Assembly: GCF_005889725.1 (NCBI RefSeq)
Contig: NZ_VCKX01000020.1
Location: forward strand, 1 to 64,000
From: Nonomuraea zeae
Lineage (GTDB): Bacteria > Actinomycetota > Actinomycetes > Streptosporangiales > Streptosporangiaceae
Length of the DNA stretch: 64,000 nucleotides
Reading direction: 5' to 3'
Shown in pieces: positions 10,395 to 26,769 of this stretch. The first letter of the stretch is position 1. The number at the start of each line of letters is the position of its first letter. A program made the translations under genes and the position numbers. The notes under the pieces are model-generated. The model made no database searches and was not told where the DNA came from. It saw only the letters and a program-made list of their open reading frames with translations.

Positions 10395-12059
10395 GTAAGC
10401 ATTCACCTCCAGCGCATTTCGGCTTCTGGTGATCGCGCTGTGTGATCGTCCTCAGGCATGCGTGAGGACGGCCGATCCTGGGATGGTCAGCCGGTTACCG
10501 GGTCGGGTGGCATCCAGAGGTTGCCCAGCAGCGCGTTGCGTAGGACGGTCATGACGTCGAGGCTGTGCTTGAGTGCGGTGGATAGGTAGCCGCGTACGGC
10601 GTAGCGGTGCTCGGTGGCCTTCTCCGAGCGGAGCCTGCCGGAGATTTTCTGCTGGGTTTTGGCTGGTCGCAGGTCGCGTTCGGCCTGGTTGTTCGTCGGT
10701 GGGATCCGTAAGTCGCAGGCGAAGCGCAGGACGTCGTCGGCGCGGTCGCGCAGCACCTCCAGCAGCACCCGGCCGACCGACTGGGTGACGGTCTTGGCCG
10801 GCCCCGGCAGGCGCTTGACCTGCGACAGTCCGACGGCAACTCCGCCGCGGTACATCTTGGTGAACATCGCCAGGGTGCCAGCCTCGATGGCGTCTTTGTC
10901 CTGGTCGCGGGCGAGGTTGGCGGCGTGGATCGAGCCGCGCAGCGCCATCTGCAGCTGCCGGGGCCAGCGAGCATCTGGGTAGGTCTCCGCACAGTCTTCA
11001 AGATCGCGATTGAGGTGCGCCGCGCAGAGTTGGTGATCACGCGCACCCAGGTCGGTGGCGTCGTAGTTCTGGTAGCGGTCATGGACCACCACGCCGGTCA
11101 GGTCGGCCACCACGAACTTCTTGAAGGTCTCCAGGTCCCGCCCGCCGAGCATGTACCAGGTCAGCAGCCGGTCGCAGGCCACCAGCAGGTACTTCTTAGC
11201 CTTCTTCGGCCCGACCCGGATGGGCGTCTCGTCGCAGCACACCACGTAGGCCAGGGTGAGCAGCATCCGGATCCGCGCGTTCGCGGGATGCGACCGCGAC
11301 GGCGGCCCGGCCGATCAAGCCGTGCACGAACCCGGGCGAGGGCTCCGCACCGGTGAGCGAGGCCACCAACACGGCGACCCGGTGCACCGGAATCGCGTGA
11401 ACAACCAGCAGATACACACACCACGCCTGCAGATTGACCCCCAGACTGACCGGTGCCGGGGGCACGCCCGGCGCGGTATGCACGGCGCCGCACCGGCAGG
11501 CGACCGTGTGCACCTGATGCTGGAATCGGCGAGCCACCAGCAGCGGGATCTCGGTCTGCTGGTGCCGGGCCGTCACCCCCAGATCGGCTGCCTGGCCCAG
11601 ATCGGTCCCGCACCCGCATCGGCCTTGTGGATAGTGCTCGACGATGTCGCCATCGGCGACCTCATCGGACCAGGCCAGCGCCCTACCCTGGGCACCGGGC
11701 TGCTTACCCGGCCGACGCCGACCGCTGCTGACCTCGCGATCCTTGGGCTGCTGGCGGCCGGGAAGGTCATCGACCGAGGGCGGCATCCCGGAATTGCCGC
11801 TGTTACGCGAGACCAGCCGCTCCAGCTTGGCCACCCGCTCGCGCAGCGCAGCGTTCTCGGCCCGAAGCTCGGCTACCTCCGCCTTCAACGCGGTGTTCTC
11901 GGCCATGAGCGCGCGCGTCAGAGCGATCAGCTCCTCGCGGGACAGCTCCTCCAGGCCGGACACCTGAAGATCACATCATCCGAGCCCGATTTGATCAAAG
12001 TGACGACGGTCACGCAACCACTCGAACTGCTACATCCTGTGCACGACGTGAAAACTTAC
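10395..12059 (-). mobile_element. IS66 family insertion sequence with both ends
   Basis: The element is 1665 bp. The left end reads GTAAGCATTCACCTCC and the right end, inverted, GTAAGTTTTCACGTCG, so the termini start with the family GTAAG and share a TTCAC block. Flanking CTTTGAAG copies show that this is a real transposition product. It is the single-gene type, with only a TnpC-like transposase. Confidence 0.85.
10487..11963 (-). pseudogene. tnpC: IS66 family transposase, one frameshift
   Basis: The start near 11963 (MSGLEELSREELIAL) leads into the coiled coil ENTALKAEVAELRAENAALR, then NSGNSGMPPSVDD and a cysteine knuckle (GRCGCGTDL). The frame breaks near 11275, and the catalytic part continues as YVVCCDETPIRVGPKKAKKY, VVHDRYQNYD and NNQAERDLRP, supplying the D, D and E residues. 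The C-terminal RNALLGNLWMPPDPVTG is intact. Only this one indel separates the gene from a complete transposase, which fits the recent insertion shown by the target duplication. A sequencing error is possible. Confidence 0.85.
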
Positions 12060-12187: not shown

Positions 12188-13750
12188 GTGTGGTCTTCAC
12201 CTCTCATAAACAAGAGTCTGCGCAGGGTGGCCGTCTTGGCGGCAGCTGCGATGACGATGCCCGCGGTCGCCGCCCCCGCGCATGCAAACCCCGATCCCGC
12301 CTCTCTGGTCGCGGCCGTGACGGCCGATCACATCCAGCGGCACGTGCAGGCGCTGCAGTCGATTGCTGACACTCACGGCGGCACCCGCGCCTCCGGCACC
12401 TCCGGCTATGACGCTTCGGCCCAGTACGTGGCAGGGCGGCTGCGGAGCGCGGGCCTCAATGTCGCGCTGCAGCCCTTCTCTTTCCCCTTCTACCAAGAGA
12501 ACGCTGTCGGCACGCTGGAACAGGTCTCACCGGAGTCGAAGAGCTACGCCCCGACGCCGCCTAATGGCAGTACCGTCGGTGACTTCTTCACCATGATCTA
12601 CTCCGGTGCGGGTGATGTGCGCGCAACGGTGCAGAGTGTGGATCTCCCCCTGCCGCCGACGCCCACTCCCAGCTCCACGTCCGGCTGCGAGACCGAGGAC
12701 TTCGCTGACTTCAAGGCCGGCAACATTGCCCTGATCCAGCGTGGCAGCTGCGACTTCGCGGTGAAGGCGGCCAATGCCAAGACCGCGGGTGCGGCAGCCG
12801 TGATCATTTTCAACTCAGGACAGCCAGGCCGTACCGGCACCATCCAGGCGACCCTGGGTAACCCGGTGGGTATTCCCGTCGTGGGCACCACTTTCGCCCT
12901 GGGCGAGGACCTCGCCTCGCCAACCGGTACGGTGGCGCACCTCAAGCTGGACACGACCAGCGAGATGCGCACCACTCATAACGTGATCGCTGAGTCACCC
13001 GGCGGCGACTCCGGCAACGTGGTGATGCTCGGCGCACATCTCGACAGTGTGGTCGCCGGCCCCGGTATCAACGACAATGCCTCCGGAAGCGTGGGACTGC
13101 TGGAAGCAGCCCTGCTAACGGCGAAGCTCAAGCCGCACAACAAGGTGCGCTTCGCCTGGTGGGGCGCCGAGGAATTCGGACTGCGTGGCTCCACCGAGTA
13201 CGTGAACGCCCTTTCGGCCGACCAGCTCGGCCAGGTCAAGCTGTACCTGAACTTCGACATGATCGCCTCACCCAACTACGCCCTGCAGGTCTACGACGGC
13301 GACGGCTCGGGTGGAAGCGGAGCACCCGTGGGGCCGCCCGGCTCCAGCGATATCGAAAAGAACTTCCAAAGCTACTACGAAACCCTAGGCCTCCGTCACA
13401 CGAGCGCCGCATTCAACGGCCGCTCCGACTACGGACCGTTCATCGAGAAGGGAATCCCCGCCGGCGGCATCTTCACCGGCTCCGACGGCCTGAAGACGGC
13501 CGAGGAGCAGCAATTGTTCGGCGGTACCGCCGGAACCCCCTATGACTCTTGCTACCACCGGTCCTGTGACACGGCTGCGAACATCAACGCCAAGGCACTG
13601 CTCGTCAACACCGGTGCCATCGTCTACGCGACGGCGACCTACGCCTTCGATGAGAACCTCCCCGGCACGGGCATGAAGCGCACGACAGGGGAGAAGGACA
13701 CCTCCTCACACAACAGCCACGGCGAGCACGACCGCGAGCTCACCCGCTAA
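12188..13750 (+). CDS. Secreted M28 family metallo-aminopeptidase with PA domain
   Basis: This 520-residue zinc exopeptidase has a signal peptide (NKSLRRVAVLAAAAM to APAHA). Residues about 130-260 form an inserted protease-associated domain (GNIALIQRGSCDFAVKAANA). The peptidase core follows with its two-zinc ligands: GAHLDSVVAGPGINDNASG near residue 281, the catalytic and metal Glu pair in WWGAEEFGLRGS near 323, the Asp in NFDMI, and the last His in YHRSCDT near 456. It belongs to the Streptomyces aminopeptidase S type and should remove N-terminal residues from extracellular peptides. The GTG start follows GGAAGG. A hydrophilic tail ends the protein and a hairpin terminator follows. It could in principle trim exported peptides, but there is no evidence linking it to the lanthipeptide. 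Confidence 0.93.
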   Translation: MWSSPLINKSLRRVAVLAAAAMTMPAVAAPAHANPDPASLVAAVTADHIQRHVQALQSIADTHGGTRASGTSGYDASAQYVAGRLRSAGLNVALQPFSFPFYQENAVGTLEQVSPESKSYAPTPPNGSTVGDFFTMIYSGAGDVRATVQSVDLPLPPTPTPSSTSGCETEDFADFKAGNIALIQRGSCDFAVKAANAKTAGAAAVIIFNSGQPGRTGTIQATLGNPVGIPVVGTTFALGEDLASPTGTVAHLKLDTTSEMRTTHNVIAESPGGDSGNVVMLGAHLDSVVAGPGINDNASGSVGLLEAALLTAKLKPHNKVRFAWWGAEEFGLRGSTEYVNALSADQLGQVKLYLNFDMIASPNYALQVYDGDGSGGSGAPVGPPGSSDIEKNFQSYYETLGLRHTSAAFNGRSDYGPFIEKGIPAGGIFTGSDGLKTAEEQQLFGGTAGTPYDSCYHRSCDTAANINAKALLVNTGAIVYATATYAFDENLPGTGMKRTTGEKDTSSHNSHGEHDRELTR

Positions 13751-17160: not shown

Positions 17161-17268
17161 CACCCTCAGTGTTTCGGGATTGCCGGGCCGGCATGCCCGC
17201 TACCGTGCGGGATCATTCCGCCGCCATCCTGGCGGGCACCGCGAGAGCAGCGACGATAAGGGGACGCA

Positions 17269-19122
17269 GTGTCGCAGGTCCAGATGCGCCTGGGTGTGCT
17301 TGGACCGCTGGAGGTGGAGATCGAGGGCAGGCAGGTGTCCTTGCCTGCGGGCAAGCACCGTGTTCTGCTCGCTGCTCTCCTGCTGCGGGGCAACCTCACC
17401 GTCCGTAGGGACGAATTGATCGACTACGTGTGGGACGGCGCGCCGCCGCCCGGCGCGCGCGGCGCCGTGCAGACCTACATGGCCCGGTTGCGAGCCGCCC
17501 TCCAGCCGGCCTGCGTGATCGTCACCCGGTCCGACGGCTACCTCATCGAGATGCCCGAAACCGCCCTGGACCTGCACCGCTTCCGGGAACTCGGCGCCCG
17601 GGCCGAGACGGCCGCGGCGCAGGACCGGGCCGCGGAGTCCGCCCTGCTCCAGCAGGCCCTGGAGCTGTGGCGGGGGCCCGCCCTCGCCGACGTGCCGTCC
17701 GAGACTCTGCGCACGCTGGCTGCGATCCCGCTCGCCGAGGAACGGCTGGCGACGCTGGAGCGCCGTATCGAGGCGGACCTCACCCTCGGCAGACACCGGC
17801 AGGTGCTCGCTGAACTGCGGACGCTCACCGCCGAACACCCGCTGCACGAGCGCTTCTGGGGGCAACTGGTCATGGCGCTGCACGGCAGCGGACGACAGGC
17901 CGAGGCCTTGGAGGCGTTTCGCGGGCTCCGCCGGCTGCTGCACGACGAACTCGGCATCGAGCCGGGCGAGGACCTGCAGGCCCTGCACCGTCAGGTGCTC
18001 AACGGCGCGCCGGCCCTCCCCAGCCGGCCGCGCCATGCTTCTCCGCTCGTTTCCCGGCCTGGTGTGTGGCGCGCCAGCTGCCATCTGCCGCCGGACGTCG
18101 GCGCCTATGCTGGACGCGCGGAGCTGATCGCGGAGGCCACGGTCCTGCTAGCGGGCGCCGGCCGCACTGCGGTGCCCGTTCTGGCGGTGTGCGGCGCGCC
18201 CGGGACCGGGAAGACGGCCCTGGCCCTCAGGATCGCGCATCAGATCCGGTACGCCTTCCTGGACGGCCAGTGGTTCGTCCGGCTGCGTGATGCTGAAGGC
18301 AAGCCGCGCGATCCCTCCGGCGTGCTCGCCGAGGTGCTCCTCGCGGCCGGGGTGGACCGGGCGTCCGTCCCCGGCGACTTGGCGGCGCGGGCGGCCCGGC
18401 TGCGCGCCGAGCTGGCCGGCCGCTCGTTGCTTTTGGTGCTGGACGACGCCGCCGATGCGGCTCAGATCAGGCCGTTGCTGCCCGGTGTCGCGGGTTGCGC
18501 GGTGATCGTCACCAGCCGGACCGACCTACGCGGCCTCGCCGCGCTGCACGACGCCCGCGTCGTCACGCTGGAGCCGCTGCGGCGCGCGGAGTCGGTGCGG
18601 CTGCTCGCGGAACTCGTCCCGGGCGGGGAGGCCGGCGACGAGGGCAGGCGAGCGGAGATCGCCGGGCTCTGCGACGACCTGCCGCTGGCGATCAGGTTGG
18701 CCGCGGCCAATCTGATCGGCCGCTCCCCTGCCGAGGCGAGCCGCTATCTGGCCCGGCTGCGTTCGGGCGACCGGCTCGGCATGCTGGCGGTGGCGGGCGA
18801 CGCCGAGGCGTCGATGCGGGCCGCTTACGACCGCTCCTACCTGGCGCTGCCGCCTGCTGCCCGCCAGCTCTTCCGCCTTCTCGCGCCGGTGCCGGGCGAC
18901 ATCTCGCTGGAGGCCGCGGCGGGGCTGCTGGCTGTGCCGGCCCGGGAGGCCGAGCCACTGCTCGCCACGCTGACCGCCGCGCACCTCGTGCGGCAAGCCG
19001 GCGCCGGCGACCGCTACCGGCTCGACCCGCTGCCGCGGCTGTATGCCGCCGAGCGGCTGGCCGCGGAGGAGGCCCCGTTCCCCCGGGCGACCGCCACGGA
19101 GCGGCGGCTGGTTTGCCCATGA
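17269..19122 (+). CDS. SARP family transcriptional activator with NB-ARC ATPase domain
   Basis: This 617-residue regulator has an OmpR-like winged helix (residues 1-95: LRGNLTVRRDELIDYVWDG), a bacterial transcriptional activation domain (about 100-245: YLIEMPETALDLHRFREL, LHGSGRQAEALEAFRGLRRLL), and an NB-ARC ATPase with Walker A GAPGTGKTAL near 310, Walker B LLLVLDDAAD near 387 and GLCDDLPLAIRLAA. It lacks the C-terminal TPR array of AfsR and stops soon after the ATPase. SARPs bind direct repeats spaced by one or two helical turns next to promoters of biosynthetic genes; a matching array lies at 24367-24410 between lanB and lanA. Its stop precedes the end of the convergent cupin gene. GTG start. 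Confidence 0.9.
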   Translation: MSQVQMRLGVLGPLEVEIEGRQVSLPAGKHRVLLAALLLRGNLTVRRDELIDYVWDGAPPPGARGAVQTYMARLRAALQPACVIVTRSDGYLIEMPETALDLHRFRELGARAETAAAQDRAAESALLQQALELWRGPALADVPSETLRTLAAIPLAEERLATLERRIEADLTLGRHRQVLAELRTLTAEHPLHERFWGQLVMALHGSGRQAEALEAFRGLRRLLHDELGIEPGEDLQALHRQVLNGAPALPSRPRHASPLVSRPGVWRASCHLPPDVGAYAGRAELIAEATVLLAGAGRTAVPVLAVCGAPGTGKTALALRIAHQIRYAFLDGQWFVRLRDAEGKPRDPSGVLAEVLLAAGVDRASVPGDLAARAARLRAELAGRSLLLVLDDAADAAQIRPLLPGVAGCAVIVTSRTDLRGLAALHDARVVTLEPLRRAESVRLLAELVPGGEAGDEGRRAEIAGLCDDLPLAIRLAAANLIGRSPAEASRYLARLRSGDRLGMLAVAGDAEASMRAAYDRSYLALPPAARQLFRLLAPVPGDISLEAAAGLLAVPAREAEPLLATLTAAHLVRQAGAGDRYRLDPLPRLYAAERLAAEEAPFPRATATERRLVCP

Positions 19123-19309
19123 CCCACAGACCGAGGACGCCCTGACGTGGCGGCCCGGCGTGCGCCTGCGCGAGATGTCGCGGCACGCCGTCGCCGCGAC
19201 GGACGCTTCTGCGTCACGGCAGGCCGCCGGCGGCGTGGATCCTGCGCAGCGCCCCCAGAGGGCCTCGATCCTGCCTTTCCGCCCGACCGGCAGGTGCTCC
19301 TGCCAGTGA

Positions 19310-19830
19310 AGGCTGCGCTGACCTGCGCAGCCCAGGCCTGTACGACCTCGCGCAGCCGCGGCGGATTCACCATGACGGACAGGTGCAGGGAACCCTGCGA
19401 CCCGGCCCGCGCCCGATGCCCCATGCCCAGCGGCACGTACAGTCCCTCACCTGCGCGCAGTTCGACCTCCTTCGTGACGGCGTCCTCACTGGGGATCTCG
19501 GCGAGGTCCCAGTCGTCGCCGGCCGGCACGTCGTAGAGCGTCCAGCGCTTGCTCCCCTCCGCCTGGATGACGAATACGTGGGTGCCGCCCCGGTGGGCCC
19601 GCGTGCCAAAGTGGTCGGGAGAAGTCAAGAACGCGACGGTCTGGACGCGCGCCGCCAGCTCCTTGGTCCGATGTCGTGAAGCGGAGCACGCTCCGCCCCC
19701 AATCGAGACGCTCGGCCTCCTCCGGCTTGGCGAACAGCCATGCCCACGCCGATGCGATGGCCTCCACCTCGACGTCCTCCATCCGGTGCCCTTTCACAAT
19801 GTCGCCCAGCGGGCGTCTTGTGTCGGTCAC
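19310..19830 (-). pseudogene. Cupin/JmjC-like protein of the lanthipeptide locus, frameshifted
   Basis: The first frame gives MTDTRRPLGDIVKGHRMEDV and ASAWAWLFAKPEEAERLDW. A frame change near 19685 then continues as TVAFLTSPDHFGTRAHRGGTHVFVIQ, GSKRWTLYDVP and ELRAGEGLYVPLGMGHRA, the double-stranded beta-helix of JmjC/ROXA-type cupins. The usual HxD iron-binding pair is replaced by His-Arg-Gly, although the distal His in GMGHRA remains. The gene starts 25 bp after lanC and belongs to the lanB-lanC transcript. The C-terminus is uncertain: codon bias fades beyond about 19310. The frameshift could be real decay or an assembly error. A hydroxylase or halogenase-like tailoring role is only a guess. 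Confidence 0.65.
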
Positions 19831-19855
19831 AAGTCTGTTCCGTCCGCGCTGCCGC

Positions 19856-21217
19856 TCACCGCACCAGCAGGGCCGCGTCCCAGCCGCTTTCCGCCGGCCG
19901 GTCGCCTGCGTACGCGTGCAGCGCTAGCGCGATCCCCGCGGCCCCCTCGAGGAAGCCGGGCAGGTCGACGGTCTCCCCAGCGTGCAGGGTTGCCCCCCGG
20001 AATCCGAACGGGGCTTGCGGGTCATAGAGGTCGAGCGCCCGATCCGCGAGCCGGTCTGCGGTGCCGGCCAACTCTGCGTCGTCTGCGTCGCGGGCCACCA
20101 TGCGGGTCAAGTGGAGCAGGCCCGCCCACCCGTGACACAACCCCGCGTCCTGCGGACCATGCCGCTCGTCCGGCAGCGTTAGGGTGCCACGCAACGCTTC
20201 CACGGCGAATCGGTGCCATTCCGGCCGGTCCAGCGCCATTCCGGCCAGTTGCAGGGCGCGCGCCGCACCGGGAACGCCGTAGCACCATGCCGAGCGACCG
20301 CGAGACAGGTCGGCAGGGCAGACGGCGAGTTCCTCGCGCTGCACAAAGCTGGGCCAGTACGCGCCCCCCTCATCGATGCGGTGCCAGTCGAGCATCCAGT
20401 CGACGATCCGCACCATGGCCTCATCGTGCCCGGGCACGCGCACGCCCTCCTGCCACGCGAGGGCCAGCAGCGCAAGCGGTCCCGGCACTCCGTGAGCGAG
20501 CCCCAGGTTGCCGTGCCCGCCGTACCCGTCCACCGACTCGCTGTTCGGTGTATGCGACACCCACCAGCCCGGCAGCGCCGCGTGCTCTCCCGCGAAAGGC
20601 TTGGTCAGGGCGACGAGGTAGGAGAGGATTTCCACCAGGGTCAAGCGGGCGGCCGGGGCGGGCCGGTCGAGGAGGTAGCGCCCCACGCCCGTCACGCCGC
20701 TGATGATGTCGTAGGCCACGAACGGCGTGCCTGCTCGGCCGGCTTCGATGCGCTCCCATTCGGGGCGCAGCTGCGCCGGAACCCAGGCCGCGAGATGCTC
20801 GTCGACCGACTTGAGGATCTTGGCGTACTCGCCGGGGCGGCGTCTGGCACGCGAGGCAGCGAAGGCAAGGGCCACGTAGCCGGTGTAGAGCCCGGAGGCA
20901 TGCGCCTGAGCCACCTCTGCGGCGGCATGCGTCAGGTATTCGTGCGCGACCCATCGGTAGGCGATGTCGGTGTGCGCTAGCTCGCCGTACAGCAGGGCTA
21001 AGGCCGGATATCCGTCGGTGATGGACGTTGGGTGCCAGATCGGCATGCGTGTCCCGTCCGGCAGTGGACGCGTGTTGTCCCGGGCCGTCGCGTGCTCGGC
21101 GACGAAGCTCGGGTCGGCGAGTCGTTCGGCGAGTTCGGCCACGGCCGCGGCGGCCCTGGCTCGTGTCCCGGCGTCCACGCCACCTCGTGGGCGGGCCGAT
21201 TGCTCGGTGTGTGTCAT
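19856..21217 (-). CDS. lanC: Lanthipeptide cyclase LanC
   Basis: This 453-residue protein is an alpha/alpha-barrel cyclase that joins Cys thiols to dehydrated Ser/Thr to form lanthionine rings. It has the LanC landmarks: GNLGLAHGVPGPLALL, the first zinc Cys in RSAWCYGVPG near residue 311, and the Cys-His pair in DAGLCHGWAG near 363. The ATG overlaps the lanB stop by 4 bp (ATGA), giving tight coupling and near-equal synthesis with the dehydratase. All zinc ligands are present, so the enzyme looks active. Confidence 0.95.
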   Translation of the reverse strand: MTHTEQSARPRGGVDAGTRARAAAAVAELAERLADPSFVAEHATARDNTRPLPDGTRMPIWHPTSITDGYPALALLYGELAHTDIAYRWVAHEYLTHAAAEVAQAHASGLYTGYVALAFAASRARRRPGEYAKILKSVDEHLAAWVPAQLRPEWERIEAGRAGTPFVAYDIISGVTGVGRYLLDRPAPAARLTLVEILSYLVALTKPFAGEHAALPGWWVSHTPNSESVDGYGGHGNLGLAHGVPGPLALLALAWQEGVRVPGHDEAMVRIVDWMLDWHRIDEGGAYWPSFVQREELAVCPADLSRGRSAWCYGVPGAARALQLAGMALDRPEWHRFAVEALRGTLTLPDERHGPQDAGLCHGWAGLLHLTRMVARDADDAELAGTADRLADRALDLYDPQAPFGFRGATLHAGETVDLPGFLEGAAGIALALHAYAGDRPAESGWDAALLVR

Positions 21218-24200
21218 GCCATGAATCTCTTCCGTGAGAGGGCCGCTTCCACGACGCCGCGGGCGATGGCCAGCGTCCGTGGCTCGGTGGTGGGCCGGAC
21301 GCCGATGAGCCGGTTGTGGTGCATGTGCAGGAGCCCGCTGACCACGGCGGATCGCGTGTCGCTGAGCGGCTCCGCAGCCTCCTCCCGGATGGCGCTTCCG
21401 TAGGTTTCGAGGGCGGGCCTGCGTGCCCGCCAGATTTCCAGGAGCTCGGCGCCGCCCTTCCGGGCCGCCAGCGCGGGCCAGTCACCGTCCGGGTCGATGA
21501 GCCGGATCGCCTCCTGGCGCTTGTCCCGGAACGCGGCGTGGTGATCTCCCTTTGGCAGGAAGGACAGCAGCCACTGCTGCCAGTCGGGGTCGCCGAGGCT
21601 GCGTAGGATGTCTATGTAGTTGGCCGCCACCAGGAGTTCCGCGTCGATGTCCAGGTCGCGCTCGCGTAGGCGGAGTTGGGCCAGGACCGCGGCGCTGTCG
21701 GCGGCGAATACTCCTTCGGCGGACTCGATGGTCTCCGCGCCACCGTACCTGGCGACCTCGGGCTCGTAGACGTCGAGCGCGAGGCGCGAGGCAAGCCCAG
21801 CGTGGCACAGCGTTTCGGCCCAGTCACGCAGGGCGGGCAGCAGGCGCGCATTCACCTCATGTGGATCCCCGTGGAAGCGGAGCCGAAGGTGCGGGTCGGG
21901 ATCCTGGTAGCGGATGAAGAACCAGCGGTCCACCGAGGGGGGCAGGTCCGTGAGCAGATCGGGCAGATGCCGTCCCAGGAGCTCGTCCTGTCTTGCGCGG
22001 GTGCTGTACAGCTTCGCGTAGAGCCATTCGCCGCCTGGTAGATAGCGCGGGCGCGGTGCCTTGCCGCGCGGCATGTGCCTGGGGGGCCGTGCGGCGCCGT
22101 TCACGAGCGTCAGGGGGACGACGAGCTCGTTGGCGTGCCCGTCCAGCCATCCTGTCTCCTCGGGCGTGCCGGACGGCTCGCGCACCGTTACCTCGGGGTG
22201 GCGTGACAGCTCGTCCCGGAGCAGCCTGCGGTGCAGGGGTATGGTTAGGTGGAGTTCTACCCGGTGATCACCCATCGCCACCTGTACCCGGTCGGGCACC
22301 CGCCACCGTGCCCGCCAGGCGTCCAGCGCTGTGGACCACTCGTCGTCACTCAGATTCCGGTCACGCATGCGAGTGTCGGCCCGCCAGCGGGCCGGGGCGA
22401 GCACCGTGCGACCGTAACGGACTCTCGGCAGCCAGGGAAGTGCCTCGGCAGCGCCCCATGACCAGCCGTGCAGGTGGCGATGTCCACCGTCGGCGATCTC
22501 CCGGATGAGGCGGACCGCGTTGGCGCTCAGCCGCGTAGCGTCCAGCATGTGCGGTGAGACGGCTGTGATCTCCCGGCCGTGCGGGGCGGAGACCAGGAAC
22601 AGCCCGTGGCCGTCCGCCCCGACCAGGAGGTCGCCCGCGCCAAGCACGCGCGGATCCGACCGCTCGGCGAAGGTGCCCACGGCGAGGGTGTGGTCGCACA
22701 CCACGGGCACCTGCGCGACGTTGGCCACGCGTGGTGCGACCGGCTGGAAGATCAACTGAGCCCGGACCGGCCGATCGCCTCCGGGGGTGACGGGGGCCAT
22801 CGGATAGCTTCCCTCAGGGAACAGGTAGGCGAAGCGCCCGAAGAAGGACCCGGCCATCGAGGAGCCGCCCGAGGGCACGAGCGCTAGCTGGAATTCGCCT
22901 CCATCGAGGGCTTCTGCGGAGTTGGCGAGGACCTGCACGCACAGCTCCGCGGACTCAGTCGGAGGCAGATGGGACTCTTGGTCGCCGGCGAGCCGGGCCA
23001 CCAGCTCATCGTTCAGCACGACCTCGGCCGACCCGTCCAGCAACGCTTGTTGTGCCAGCTCGGCAAGCAGTTCGTCGTTCGGGTTCCAGCGTTCGGGAGC
23101 CGGCTTCGACGGCCGTTCGCTTTCCGGGACCGTGTATCCGGAGGGGAAGCCGAGACCGCGTTCGGGGTCGACGAGCTCGATAAGGGGGATCAGTTGGTCG
23201 GTGCCATAGCGTTCGAGGAATGCTGTGTGATACTCCGTCACGTGCGGCGGGAGCTCCCCGAGGGTGGACATGCGCTGCAGCGCCGTTGCCGCCGCAGCCA
23301 CCTCGTCGGCCACTTTCCTGGGCAGCCTCACGTCGGCGTCCAAGCGCATGTCCACGTGGATCGGTGACGTGTCCGCTGGCCGCAGTGCGCGCATCGCGGC
23401 GATGGCCGCGCGCCACGCGAGGCGGCCCTCCCCCGGCGGGCACTCGGTATAGCGGGTCAGCGCCGCGGCGATCTCACGTAGCTGGACTGCCTCCTCGAGA
23501 CCGTCCACGGCAGCGACCCGGTCGAGCACGTAGGCCAGCGGGTCGGCGCTGCTCAGCGGCGGGCGAAGGTCGGTGAGCAGCACCTCGTGCTCTACGAGCT
23601 GGCCAATCATGGCCTCGATGGCGTCTGCCGACGCCCGGAGGAAGGCCGCCTTCAGCCGGTCGAGCAGGTCGGCGTACGGGACGGGCTGCGTGGCCCACTC
23701 CATCGCCAGGCGCACCGGTCCGCTGTAGCGGATCGACAGTTCTTTGGTGCTCCTTCCGCCGTCCGGGCCGCGACGTCGTACGTAGGGCAGCACCAGCCGG
23801 TCGCCGCGAACGGCGCAGAGGTCGTTGGCGACCACACGCAGCCGCCTGCGCACACGCGGATCGCGTTCCCAGTCGGCGAGCAGCGTGGCGAGCCAGCCGG
23901 CGTCTGGACGTACCCCCTTGGCATGGGTACCGCCCAGGCGCACCTTGGTCGTGTCGCCGAAGCCGGCCAAGGCCACGCCGGCGAGCAGGCCGAAGGGTGT
24001 GGGGCGGCTGGCCATCCGCAGCAGGTAACGCGCTGTCGCCATGACCGCGCGCCGCCGCTTGGCCGCCTCAACCGGCCGTCCGGCCTCGATCCGGCTGAGG
24101 GTGCCAGCCAGCGAGTCACTGGACACCTCCAGGGCCTCGCGCAGCAGCGAGTCACGCAGGGCCTCCTCCAAGAAGGTTTTGCCCTCCTCGTCGTCCGCAT

Positions 24201-24291
24201 CCGCGCGGACCCTGGTAACCCATGCGACGGGCGCCGCCGGAACGCGCAGCAAGGCGGCGCCCGTGGCTGCGAAGCGCGGCTTGTCATTCAT
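21214..24291 (-). CDS. lanB: Full-length lanthipeptide dehydratase LanB
   Basis: At 1025 residues this is a complete class I dehydratase. The N-terminal glutamylation domain contains MASRPTPFGLLAG at 93-105 and uses glutamyl-tRNA to activate Ser/Thr. The C-terminal elimination domain (SpaB_C type, from about residue 740) shows RWFFIRYQDPDPHLRLRFHG and LDVYEPEVARYGG. The first codon lies 12 bp after a GGGGGA ribosome-binding site. It reads divergently from the precursor gene and is followed by lanC. Having both domains in one protein separates it from the split dehydratases of thiopeptide pathways. Confidence 0.95.
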   Translation of the reverse strand: MNDKPRFAATGAALLRVPAAPVAWVTRVRADADDEEGKTFLEEALRDSLLREALEVSSDSLAGTLSRIEAGRPVEAAKRRRAVMATARYLLRMASRPTPFGLLAGVALAGFGDTTKVRLGGTHAKGVRPDAGWLATLLADWERDPRVRRRLRVVANDLCAVRGDRLVLPYVRRRGPDGGRSTKELSIRYSGPVRLAMEWATQPVPYADLLDRLKAAFLRASADAIEAMIGQLVEHEVLLTDLRPPLSSADPLAYVLDRVAAVDGLEEAVQLREIAAALTRYTECPPGEGRLAWRAAIAAMRALRPADTSPIHVDMRLDADVRLPRKVADEVAAAATALQRMSTLGELPPHVTEYHTAFLERYGTDQLIPLIELVDPERGLGFPSGYTVPESERPSKPAPERWNPNDELLAELAQQALLDGSAEVVLNDELVARLAGDQESHLPPTESAELCVQVLANSAEALDGGEFQLALVPSGGSSMAGSFFGRFAYLFPEGSYPMAPVTPGGDRPVRAQLIFQPVAPRVANVAQVPVVCDHTLAVGTFAERSDPRVLGAGDLLVGADGHGLFLVSAPHGREITAVSPHMLDATRLSANAVRLIREIADGGHRHLHGWSWGAAEALPWLPRVRYGRTVLAPARWRADTRMRDRNLSDDEWSTALDAWRARWRVPDRVQVAMGDHRVELHLTIPLHRRLLRDELSRHPEVTVREPSGTPEETGWLDGHANELVVPLTLVNGAARPPRHMPRGKAPRPRYLPGGEWLYAKLYSTRARQDELLGRHLPDLLTDLPPSVDRWFFIRYQDPDPHLRLRFHGDPHEVNARLLPALRDWAETLCHAGLASRLALDVYEPEVARYGGAETIESAEGVFAADSAAVLAQLRLRERDLDIDAELLVAANYIDILRSLGDPDWQQWLLSFLPKGDHHAAFRDKRQEAIRLIDPDGDWPALAARKGGAELLEIWRARRPALETYGSAIREEAAEPLSDTRSAVVSGLLHMHHNRLIGVRPTTEPRTLAIARGVVEAALSRKRFMA

Positions 24292-24324
24292 GCGAGCTCC
24301 CCCGGATATGAACCGAACGCGGCC

Positions 24325-24352
24325 ACCCTAGCCAGCCATGTCATGCCCGTCA
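24325..24352 (-). promoter_or_regulatory. Probable lanB-lanC promoter
   Basis: On the minus strand TGACGG (24352-24347) and TAGGGT (24330-24325) are 16 bp apart, a good actinobacterial -35/-10 pair, placing the start of transcription about 27 bp before the lanB ATG. The upstream edge of the -35 box is 15 bp from the 11-bp repeat array. Confidence 0.5.
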
Positions 24353-24366
24353 CCGCCCTGACAGGG

Positions 24367-24410
24367 CGCGTGATCGGCGCGTAAGCGGCGCGCACTCGCC
24401 GCGTAAGCGC
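24367..24410. promoter_or_regulatory. Four 11-bp tandem repeats, putative SARP operator
   Basis: Units start at 24367 (CGCGTGATCGG), 24378 (CGCGTAAGCGG), 24389 (CGCGCACTCGC) and 24400 (CGCGTAAGCGC). Units 2 and 4 share CGCGTAAGCG exactly; the other two match it at 8 and 7 of 10 positions. An 11-bp period is the known spacing of heptamer repeats bound by SARP regulators. The array lies between the divergent lanB and lanA genes, and a SARP is encoded in the same cluster. Confidence 0.65.
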
Positions 24411-24428
24411 ACTGCGGGATGGTAGTGG

Positions 24429-24458
24429 CGGTCGCCCTCCGTGCATGGAGGGCGACCG
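24429..24458. promoter_or_regulatory. Perfect 12-bp stem-loop in the lanA leader
   Basis: CGGTCGCCCTCC (24429-24440) pairs with GGAGGGCGACCG (24447-24458) across a 6-nt loop, 61 bp before the lanA start and 19 bp after the repeat array. It could stabilise the leader RNA, attenuate transcription, or mark the transcript start region. Confidence 0.55.
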
Positions 24459-24519
24459 TTTCGCATGCCGTCCTGGGCGCGCAGGATACGGCCAAGCCCG
24501 AACGAGAATAAGGAGCGAC

Positions 24520-24729
24520 ATGTCGCCGATGACATTGTCCGATGAGGACCTGTTTGATCTAGACCTCGAGGTGGTGTCCGCGGATGGGCGGTCCGACACC
24601 ACTCAGTACGCCTCGGGGGGCGGGTATGTGTGCAGCCCGGGATTCAGCACCGCCTGCTACACCTCTCGGTGCCCCACCAACGGCTGTACATACAGCAACC
24701 GCGCCAATTGCTGCATGAGGCCCGTGTAA
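24520..24729 (+). CDS. lanA: Class I lanthipeptide precursor, FDLD-type leader
   Basis: The 69-residue peptide follows an AAGGAG ribosome-binding site 5 bp before the ATG. Its acidic leader holds the motif LFDLDLEVV (FDLD at residues 12-15), the recognition box of actinobacterial class I lanthipeptides of the FxLD/FDLD group. The C-terminal part, from about residue 25, is rich in Gly, Ser, Thr and Tyr and has six Cys at 38, 46, 51, 56, 64 and 65, ending NCCMRPV. Twelve Ser/Thr precede or lie among the cysteines, so up to six rings are possible. The CSPG stretch recalls the CTPG of nisin rings, but the spacing differs. The leader cleavage site is not obvious. It is divergent from lanB-lanC and followed by the exporter. 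Confidence 0.92.
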   Translation: MSPMTLSDEDLFDLDLEVVSADGRSDTTQYASGGGYVCSPGFSTACYTSRCPTNGCTYSNRANCCMRPV

Positions 24730-24747
24730 GGCCGAACGGTCGCCTCT

Positions 24748-24777
24748 GACCGGAGGGACGCCTCCGTCCCTCCGGTC
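24748..24777 (+). terminator. Perfect 13-bp hairpin between lanA and lanT
   Basis: GACCGGAGGGACG (24748-24760) pairs completely with CGTCCCTCCGGTC (24765-24777) over a CCTC loop, 18 bp after the lanA stop. It likely acts as a partial terminator and 3' stabiliser, giving more precursor than exporter mRNA, a common arrangement for RiPP precursors. Confidence 0.8.
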
Positions 24778-24813
24778 GTGTCATGTCCCGATCCTGAGGG
24801 GAGGCCGAGACGC

Positions 24814-26769
24814 GTGGAAGGCATGCGGCCGAACTCCCGTTCCGGCCGGCACCGCGCCGACGGCCGGGTGCACATCCCGGAGGTCGACCCGCTGTTCGGC
24901 AGCGGCATCAGAATGACCGCCGGCTGGGCGCAGCACGACGGGGCCGGAGCTGATCTCGGCTTCTGGACGCTGCTGTGGCGGTTGCCGCGCCTGATGCGGA
25001 TCAGTTTCGGGCTGGCGTGGCACGCGGGCCACCTGTTGCTGCCCGTGGCCATCGCCGCGAAGCTGCTCGCGGGCGCGGCCACCGGCGTGGTGCTGCTGGC
25101 CACCAACGAGGCCCTGGCGCTGCTCCTGGCTGGCACGCCCACCGTCGAACGGCTCGTGGACGCCCTCCCCGTCCTGCTCGCCGTGGCTGCCGGCGGGGTG
25201 GCGCGCAGCCTGCTGTCCTCGCTGGGCGACGCGACGAACGGCAAACTCGCCCCCCGCATCGACCGAGCCGCGACCGTCAAGCTGCTCGAACGGGCCGTGC
25301 GGGTGGAACTCGTCATCATCAAGAACGCCGAGTTCCGCAATCTGATGTCGGCCGCGGCGCGCGGCGCGCTGTCGGCCCGGATGGTCACCACGTACGCGAT
25401 CGCGCTGGTGGAGGCGGTGACCGGGCTGGTCGCCGCGGCCGGGGTGCTGACCGTGCTGCACCCGATGCTGATGCCGCTGATGGCGGCCGTCACGGTTCCG
25501 TCAGCCTGGGGCGCGGTCCGCATGGCGCGGGCCCGGTTCACCTCCATGAAGCGGTGGACGGAGCTGCAGCGGCAGCTCGAGACCCTGTCCGAGTTGCTGA
25601 TCGGGGCCTCGCCCGCGGAGGAGGTGCGCGCCCATCGGGCGGACGGCTTCCTGCTCCATCACTACCAGCGGCTGGCCCGGCTGTCGGAGGCGGAGCAGGC
25701 CCGACTCGCCGGCCTGGAGGCACGCACGACGCTGTTGTCCGATGGCGTCGCCGGTCTGGCCAAGCTCGGCATGTACGGGGTGCTGGGCGCTCTACTCGTC
25801 TCCGGTTCGGTGCGGCTGGCCGTCGCCGGGACGGTCCTGATCGCCATCCGCACCGGCACGCACCATCTCACCTCGCTGGTGTCCGCGGTGAACGACCTGT
25901 ACGAGCAGGGCCTGTTCGTCCAGGACTGGAAGCAGGCGTGCGACCGGGCCGAGGCGGAGGCGATACGCGGCGGGGCGTTCGAGCTCACCGCACCGCCCGA
26001 CCAGATCTCCGTCCGGGACCTGTGGTTCACCTACCCGAACAACGAGCAGCCCTCGCTCGCCGGGGTCGACATGACCATCCGCAGAGGGGAGATCGTCGCC
26101 CTGGTAGGTGAGAACGGCTCGGGCAAGACGACGCTGGCCAAGGTGCTGGTCGGCCTGTACATGCCGCAGGCCGGCGCGGTCTGGTGGGACGGCCGCACCA
26201 CCGCCGAGGTGGACCGTGCCAGCCTCTACGACCACGTCGCCCTCGTCGCGCAGGACTTCGTGGAGTGGCCGTTCACCGCCCGGGTCAACGTGACGATCGG
26301 CCGCGCGACGCGCCGACCCGATGCCGATGCGCTGGACGCCTCGGCCGCATTCGGCCGGGCCGATGAGGTGGTGGCGCGCCTCGACGCCGGCTGGGACACG
26401 TTGCTGGCGCCCGAGTTCCTGGGCGGCACCATGTTGTCCGGCGGACAGTGGCAGCGCATCGGACTGGCCCGCGCGCACTACCGCGACGCGGCTGTGGTGA
26501 TCTTCGACGAGCCCACGGCCGCACTGGACCCCCGCGCGGAGGTCGCGGTGTTCGAGCGGGTCAGTGATCTGGCCCAGGAGGGCCGGGCCGTCGTCCTCGT
26601 CACCCACCGGCTGGCGTCCGTGCGCCGCGCGGACCGCATCTACGTCCTGGAGCGCGGGAAGGTGATCGAGCAGGGCACGCACGCGACTCTCATGGCGCTG
26701 AACGGCCGCTACGCCGAGCTGTACACCCTACAGGCCAGCCAGCACCAGGATCCGGTGTCTCCAGCATGA
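24814..26769 (+). CDS. lanT: ABC exporter (fused membrane and ATPase domains), lanthipeptide transporter
   Basis: The GTG at 24814 was chosen because GAGGGGAGG lies 9 bp upstream; the frame is open further up. The 651-residue half-transporter has about six membrane segments (LLLPVAIAAKLLAGAATGVVLL; VTGLVAAAGVLTVLHPMLMP), then an ATPase with Walker A LVGENGSGKTTL near 432, signature MLSGGQWQRIGLARA near 541, Walker B VVIFDEPTAALDP near 560 and switch His in LVTHRLASV. There is no N-terminal C39 peptidase domain, so it exports the peptide without cutting the leader. It probably works as a homodimer. Confidence 0.92.
   Translation: MEGMRPNSRSGRHRADGRVHIPEVDPLFGSGIRMTAGWAQHDGAGADLGFWTLLWRLPRLMRISFGLAWHAGHLLLPVAIAAKLLAGAATGVVLLATNEALALLLAGTPTVERLVDALPVLLAVAAGGVARSLLSSLGDATNGKLAPRIDRAATVKLLERAVRVELVIIKNAEFRNLMSAAARGALSARMVTTYAIALVEAVTGLVAAAGVLTVLHPMLMPLMAAVTVPSAWGAVRMARARFTSMKRWTELQRQLETLSELLIGASPAEEVRAHRADGFLLHHYQRLARLSEAEQARLAGLEARTTLLSDGVAGLAKLGMYGVLGALLVSGSVRLAVAGTVLIAIRTGTHHLTSLVSAVNDLYEQGLFVQDWKQACDRAEAEAIRGGAFELTAPPDQISVRDLWFTYPNNEQPSLAGVDMTIRRGEIVALVGENGSGKTTLAKVLVGLYMPQAGAVWWDGRTTAEVDRASLYDHVALVAQDFVEWPFTARVNVTIGRATRRPDADALDASAAFGRADEVVARLDAGWDTLLAPEFLGGTMLSGGQWQRIGLARAHYRDAAVVIFDEPTAALDPRAEVAVFERVSDLAQEGRAVVLVTHRLASVRRADRIYVLERGKVIEQGTHATLMALNGRYAELYTLQASQHQDPVSPA

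Follow-up and report, generated by a model that had tools for sequence, protein, structure and literature searches.

What does a compact group of genes on a contig of the soil actinobacterium Nonomuraea zeae encode, and have all of its steps been retained? We considered the first 64,000 bases of the 78,856-base contig NZ_VCKX01000020.1 (bases 1-64000, hereafter the window; the genome comprises 13.6 Mb in 756 contigs), for which a first-pass annotation had described a class I lanthipeptide locus at positions 17269-26769. We conclude that this region is probably a complete-looking class I lanthipeptide cluster, the product of which is probably undescribed but of a known kind. More specifically, with a probability of roughly 0.85, we regard it as a class I lanthipeptide cassette that is self-contained and has lost a JmjC step. 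It contains the following features.

17269..19122, plus strand: SARP-type activator, 617 residues
19219..19782, minus strand: remnant of a JmjC_2 (PF08007) oxygenase gene, a probable pseudogene, overlapping the 204-residue open reading frame (ORF) 19014-19628
19856..21217, minus strand: LanC cyclase, 453 residues
21214..24291, minus strand: full-length LanB dehydratase, 1025 residues
24369..24408, plus strand: putative operator of the SARP in the lanB-lanA intergenic region, four direct repeats (CGTGATC, CGTAAGC, CGCACTC, CGTAAGC) 11 bp apart
24520..24729, plus strand: LanA precursor, 69 residues, an ORF behind a GGAG ribosome site
24747..24778, plus strand: RNA hairpin between lanA and lanT, from the predicted fold of the 64-nt gap
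24814..26769, plus strand: LanT ABC exporter (the ORF opens at 24778)

Extent and enzymes of the cassette

The DNA similarity with Nonomuraea thailandensis covers window positions 17186-26762, beginning 83 bp ahead of the SARP ORF and ceasing at the end of lanT, and no similarity to the N. thailandensis loci L049 and L050 or to the preceding 19 kb (L122) was detected in the window outside this interval. Because the similarity is confined in this way, the SARP, JmjC, LanC, LanB, LanA and LanT genes form one unit amid unrelated flanks, and the bounds proposed in the first-pass annotation proved nearly exact. The divergent layout that it described is likewise evident from the strands: the SARP gene lies on the plus strand, the JmjC remnant, lanC and lanB on the minus strand, and lanA and lanT on the plus strand. 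The core set that it listed (SARP, LanC, LanB, LanA and an exporter) was also recovered, since all of these are open genes and four of the proteins matched their main Pfam families at 4e-29 to 1e-200. Relative to the N. thailandensis orthologs, the ratio of nonsynonymous to synonymous substitution rates (dN/dS) is 0.15-0.38 across the exporter, enzymes and regulator. An M28-family peptidase gene with a PA domain (window 12188-13750) is located 3.5 kb before the SARP gene, outside the shared cassette. Transposase genes (IS66, ISL3 and HTH_Tnp_1; window 10487-11266 and, at the downstream locus L048, 1721-3040 and 12406-13092) flank the cassette on both sides, some distance off.

LanB contains both the glutamylation and the elimination domains of a class I dehydratase, as judged by domains and alignments rather than residue by residue (Pfam Lant_dehydr_N, PF04738, 1e-200; Lant_dehydr_C, PF14028, 8e-55). 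Its solved relatives in the PDB are MibB of the NAI-107 system (5ehk, 1e-143), which is the closest, 9g04 and NisB (4wd9). The separate LanC (LANC_like, 3.9e-51) aligns with the solved structure 8byk and was matched to NisC too, and it carries HGVPG, WCYG and CHGW, in which the HG, WCYG and CHG motifs presumably supply the zinc and catalytic residues. The ATG of lanC and the stop codon of lanB share 4 bp. Against the N. thailandensis orthologs, the identity is 0.742 for LanB (dN/dS 0.32) and 0.75 for LanC (dN/dS 0.27).

LanT (ABC_tran, 4e-29) is 0.885 identical to its N. thailandensis ortholog, with a dN/dS of 0.15; no peptidase domain was matched in it. The GTG at 24814 is more likely than position 24778 to be its start: this codon has an equivalent in the ortholog, and GGGGAGG lies upstream of it in the window.

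The precursor peptide

What kind of peptide would these enzymes act upon? The LanA leader (...LFDLDLEVV) is of the FDLD type, and the core, comprising the final 34 residues after YASGGG, contains six Cys and eight Ser/Thr; the sequence as a whole combines the FDLD/FNLD-type leader and the Ser/Thr/Cys core of a class I precursor. Residues 1-35 are 0.714 identical to those of the N. thailandensis ortholog (dN/dS 0.25), whereas the remainder is 0.357 identical with a dN/dS of 0.63 over 28 codons, in an alignment that is uncertain. As far as these alignments tell, the leader is conserved against the ortholog and the core is not, so this pair of related strains illustrates a leader that is kept while the core diverges. 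The number of Cys residues is six in the window LanA, seven in N. thailandensis and six in a relative from Virgisporangium aurantiacum.

One possibility is an antibiotic that binds lipid II in the manner of nisin and NAI-107, the ring A/B motif of which is S-x3-C-T-x-G-C. The Virgisporangium precursor (L066 7210-7422) contains SIFPCTSGC, which resembles this motif, and the affinity of LanB to MibB points the same way. However, the window core contains VCSPGFSTAC and is without the ring B cysteine, and the core of the N. thailandensis ortholog is also without the motif. We regard a product of this type as rather unlikely.

The gap between lanA and lanT is predicted to fold into a strong hairpin, at -33.2 kcal/mol (z -3.98; equalled by none of 200 shuffles). 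The corresponding values are z -1.78 in N. thailandensis (9 of 200 shuffles) and z -3.47 in the Virgisporangium stretch (1 of 200). The predicted hairpin is possibly a partial terminator or an element of mRNA stability.

Putative control by the SARP

The SARP has the Trans_reg_C, BTAD (3e-42) and NB-ARC (1e-7) domains of Pfam, with no match to a TPR domain. It is 0.698 identical to the N. thailandensis ortholog (dN/dS 0.38) and 62% identical (dN/dS 0.36) to a paralog at L048, a second locus on the same contig that is described below. The similarity to the ortholog and the paralog stops at residues 612 and 603, indicating a variable tail. We also considered that the window SARP might be truncated; this was rejected, because the paralog itself stops 14 codons beyond residue 603, where the similarity to it runs out.

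The passages on SARP binding in PMC5930380 and PMC10972967 describe the classical sites as heptamers spaced 11 bp apart. As in a SARP-controlled cluster, both a SARP gene and heptamer repeats with this spacing upstream of the presumed target genes are present. The repeats were first spotted by eye and the period tests were run afterwards, with eight combinations of period and copy number scored per region. For the best three-copy score at period 11, the number of shuffles that did as well was 0 of 200 in the window, 1 of 200 in N. thailandensis and 0 of 200 in the L048 copy; at the control periods 10, 12 and 22 in the window it was 103, 199 and 61 of 200. Other low counts came from the same repeats (two copies at period 22 in the window, 2/200; two copies at period 11 in L048, 1/200), and three copies at period 22 in N. 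thailandensis were also low (7/200). When periods 8 to 16 were scanned across the 64 kb at a score of at least 20, positions 24369-24408 were the sole period-11 cluster; period 9 gave one cluster and period 12 gave four. Pair patterns were derived from the sites themselves, so their counts are not independent evidence: one match in the window (0 of 100 shuffles), one in N. thailandensis (L049; 2 of 200 shuffles had any) and, for a looser pattern, two matches in L048, a number seen in 0 of 200 shuffles. In Virgisporangium, 14 of 200 shuffles attained the three-copy score at period 11, and the exact pair pattern gave 0 matches; SARP-type repeats there are only suggestive. At the level of sequence, the evidence that the lanB-lanA intergenic region contains a putative SARP operator is good.

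The remnant of a JmjC oxygenase gene

The first-pass annotation also listed a cupin/JmjC-like gene, which could not be confirmed as intact. The 204-residue ORF concerned turned out to be one fragment of a frame-broken remnant, so that a recognizable domain match can be, as here, a pseudogene. The intact N. thailandensis ortholog encodes 322 residues with a JmjC_2 domain; among solved structures it is related to MINA, NO66 and the ribosomal L16 arginine hydroxylases. Where the ortholog has 269 bases the window has 3 (19658/19662 versus L049 5887/6157), a net change of -266 bp, which is not divisible by three, and small indels lie downstream of this deletion. A search recovered two pieces, each in a different frame, and by eye tail fragments could be made out in additional frames. 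The metal motif HxD reads HRG in the window and HRD in the ortholog. Among seven relatives taken for alignment, two (L101 and L102) were wrongly framed and are not counted; HxD and the distal His are kept in all five of the others (L049, L052, L054, L061 and L062). The intact HxD...H triad that would mark a JmjC-tailored ribosomally synthesized and post-translationally modified peptide (RiPP) is absent from the window copy. We had considered the ORF as a working tailoring enzyme and rejected this after alignment with the intact ortholog, because of the deletion, the frame breaks and the HRG. Unless the assembly is wrong, the window gene appears from its alignment to be a pseudogene. The Asp-to-Gly change might bring to mind the alpha-ketoglutarate halogenases, but its reading as a halogenase-like sign is moot because of the frame breaks. 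Elsewhere in the same genome, a search for an intact homologue gave only distant matches (29% and 33%).

Among the 59 distinct loci in the comparison, one of which is the window, 8 have a JmjC match near the related LanB. The relevant passages of PMC12707348 report BipG of biphenomycin, a JmjC protein of a RiPP pathway, as an ornithine hydroxylase, and those of PMC12710340 note bacterial JmjC homologues in RiPP-like contexts; in the open full-text literature searched, as far as those texts extend, we found no description of a lanthipeptide JmjC enzyme. The better lead for new chemistry is the intact N. thailandensis gene, not the window copy.

A second LanB locus on the same contig

The contig contains a further locus beyond the end of the window.

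L048 5011-6915: second SARP, 47 kb downstream on the same contig
L048 6910-9987: LanB-2, a full 1025-residue ORF, 65% identical to the window LanB (dN/dS 0.32)
L048 10158-10301: LanA-2, a 47-residue LanA-like ORF adjoining LanB-2, with FDLD and without Cys

Could the two LanBs belong to one split system, with LanB-2 acting also on the window LanA or on the cysteine-free LanA-2? Such an arrangement would account for the full-length LanB-2 ORF, its dN/dS of 0.32 and the SARP-type repeats adjoining it. Against this, no LanC, LanT or JmjC match was found beside LanB-2, and at the same locus of a congener (G043, L121) the SARP is open, LanB is cut to two remnants and the LanA-2 stop is identical. 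We consider a split system very unlikely; the second locus is probably a relic, even though LanB-2 is open.

Is the cassette itself decaying?

Several observations weigh against a functional, self-contained cassette. Domain searches recognized no protease, LanD or immunity gene within it. With the window LanA, every NCBIfam precursor model stays under its cut-off (the best reaches 18.3 bits against 40, and the FDLD model 17.4 against 20), and the N. thailandensis LanA has zero matches to these models. The loss of the JmjC gene could also be the first sign that the whole cluster is going silent and that no peptide is made; the reduced copies of the same family at L048 and in G043 and the transposase genes in the region fit such a course. 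On the other hand, the remaining genes have open frames and dN/dS values far under 1, and the ribosome site, the hairpin and the repeats are all in place. We consider a silent, decaying cluster unlikely, and favor the cassette that has lost its JmjC step.

By this interpretation, the SARP would bind the four repeats of 11-bp spacing in the lanB-lanA intergenic region and activate the divergent units, and, because the hairpin separates lanA from lanT, LanA may be made in excess over LanT. From what is known of these families, LanB would recognize the FDLD leader and dehydrate Ser/Thr of the core via tRNA-Glu-dependent glutamylation and elimination, LanC would couple Cys to the dehydro residues to form at most six (methyl)lanthionines, and LanT would export the peptide, from which a protease encoded elsewhere would remove the leader. 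An ancestral JmjC oxygenase step, the gene for which is intact in N. thailandensis, would have been lost in the window strain.

We tentatively speculate, while thinking it less probable than its contrary, that these clusters represent a small class I subfamily under SARP control, where a single conserved set of leader and enzymes serves freely diverging Cys-rich cores and an optional JmjC peptide oxygenase, used on the lanthipeptide by the sibling, was lost here. If this were true, the window and N. thailandensis would constitute a natural minus/plus pair for an undescribed lanthipeptide hydroxylation.

Relatives and comparison with known systems

How widespread are such clusters? Within the genus, 7 of 54 genomes matched LanB with an E-value of at most 1e-200, with more than 60% identity only in the same genome and in N. 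thailandensis. A contig scan, which was pattern-based and can miss relatives, started from 97 pattern stretches and arrived at 51 LanB loci, the best being N. thailandensis (74%) and V. aurantiacum (56%). In a tree of 29 chosen LanBs, those of the window, N. thailandensis, the L048 copy and Virgisporangium form a clade (support 100/99), which is unaffected by the long branch of L098 (8.28, probably a wrong frame). LanT was matched at E 1e-190 or better in only 1 of 394 genomes of a class sample, namely its own. The LanA family search matched 11 of 341 genomes at E 0.01 or better, its own included; of the ten others, five have a precursor next to a LanB, the one in N. thailandensis (G023) being close and L041, L043, L045 and L046 being other class I precursors with different types of leader, and the remaining five (L039, L040, L042, L044 and L047), with no LanB match and no precursor-like stretch, look like chance matches. 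The precursors at L043 and L041, from two further genera of the family, are of the FDLD type and lie beside LanBs (50% and 38%, relative to that of the window). More distant relatives in N. solani, N. basaltis, N. glycinis, Actinoallomurus iriomotensis and Actinomadura DC4 have two LanC genes, with a different type of precursor in the four in which it was read. At L052, L053, L054 and L061 (Nonomuraea and Actinoallomurus), two LanC genes accompany a conserved six-Cys precursor (TCG...WSGTC...APGMC); the related cluster at L062 has two LanC genes as well.

The combination of genes had been called uncommon, which is weakly supported: SARP control has precedent in the cinnamycin (CinR1) and kyamicin clusters, according to the relevant part of PMC6974636, JmjC matches occur near other related LanBs, and the JmjC gene is broken here. 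The statement that the product cannot be matched to a compound stands as far as examined, and the LanA stays below the cut-offs of the NCBIfam models for the gallidermin/nisin (10.6 against 29.3 bits) and elgicin (18.3 against 40) families. The open full-text literature, the only literature searched, yielded no described product for the cluster and no co-mention of lanthipeptide and N. thailandensis. What the cluster contributes is a lanthipeptide precursor that is apparently undescribed, together with a minimal set of enzymes.

The closest counterpart, the cluster of N. thailandensis DSM 46694 (L049/L060), for which no description was found, shares the gene order and leader type of the window, with identities of 88.5% for LanT, 75% for LanC, 74% for LanB and 70% for the SARP; it differs in its intact JmjC gene and in its core peptide, which has seven Cys and is 36% identical over 28 aligned residues (alignment unsure). 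The V. aurantiacum cluster (L066), also without a description that we could find, shares the FDLD leader and a six-Cys core (LanT 63%, LanB 55%, SARP 53%, LanC 52%), whereas it is without a JmjC match and its SARP, of 1028 residues with TPR, has another orientation. The class I lantibiotic NAI-107 (microbisporicin) resembles the window through MibB; its cluster has a LanD, a halogenase, a P450 and sigma/anti-sigma control, none of which was recognized in the window cassette. The nisin system has the LanB/LanC domain make-up and an ABC exporter in common with the window, and its leader motif, FNLD, is related, whereas its LanP, LanFEG and LanRK have no recognized counterpart in the window cassette.

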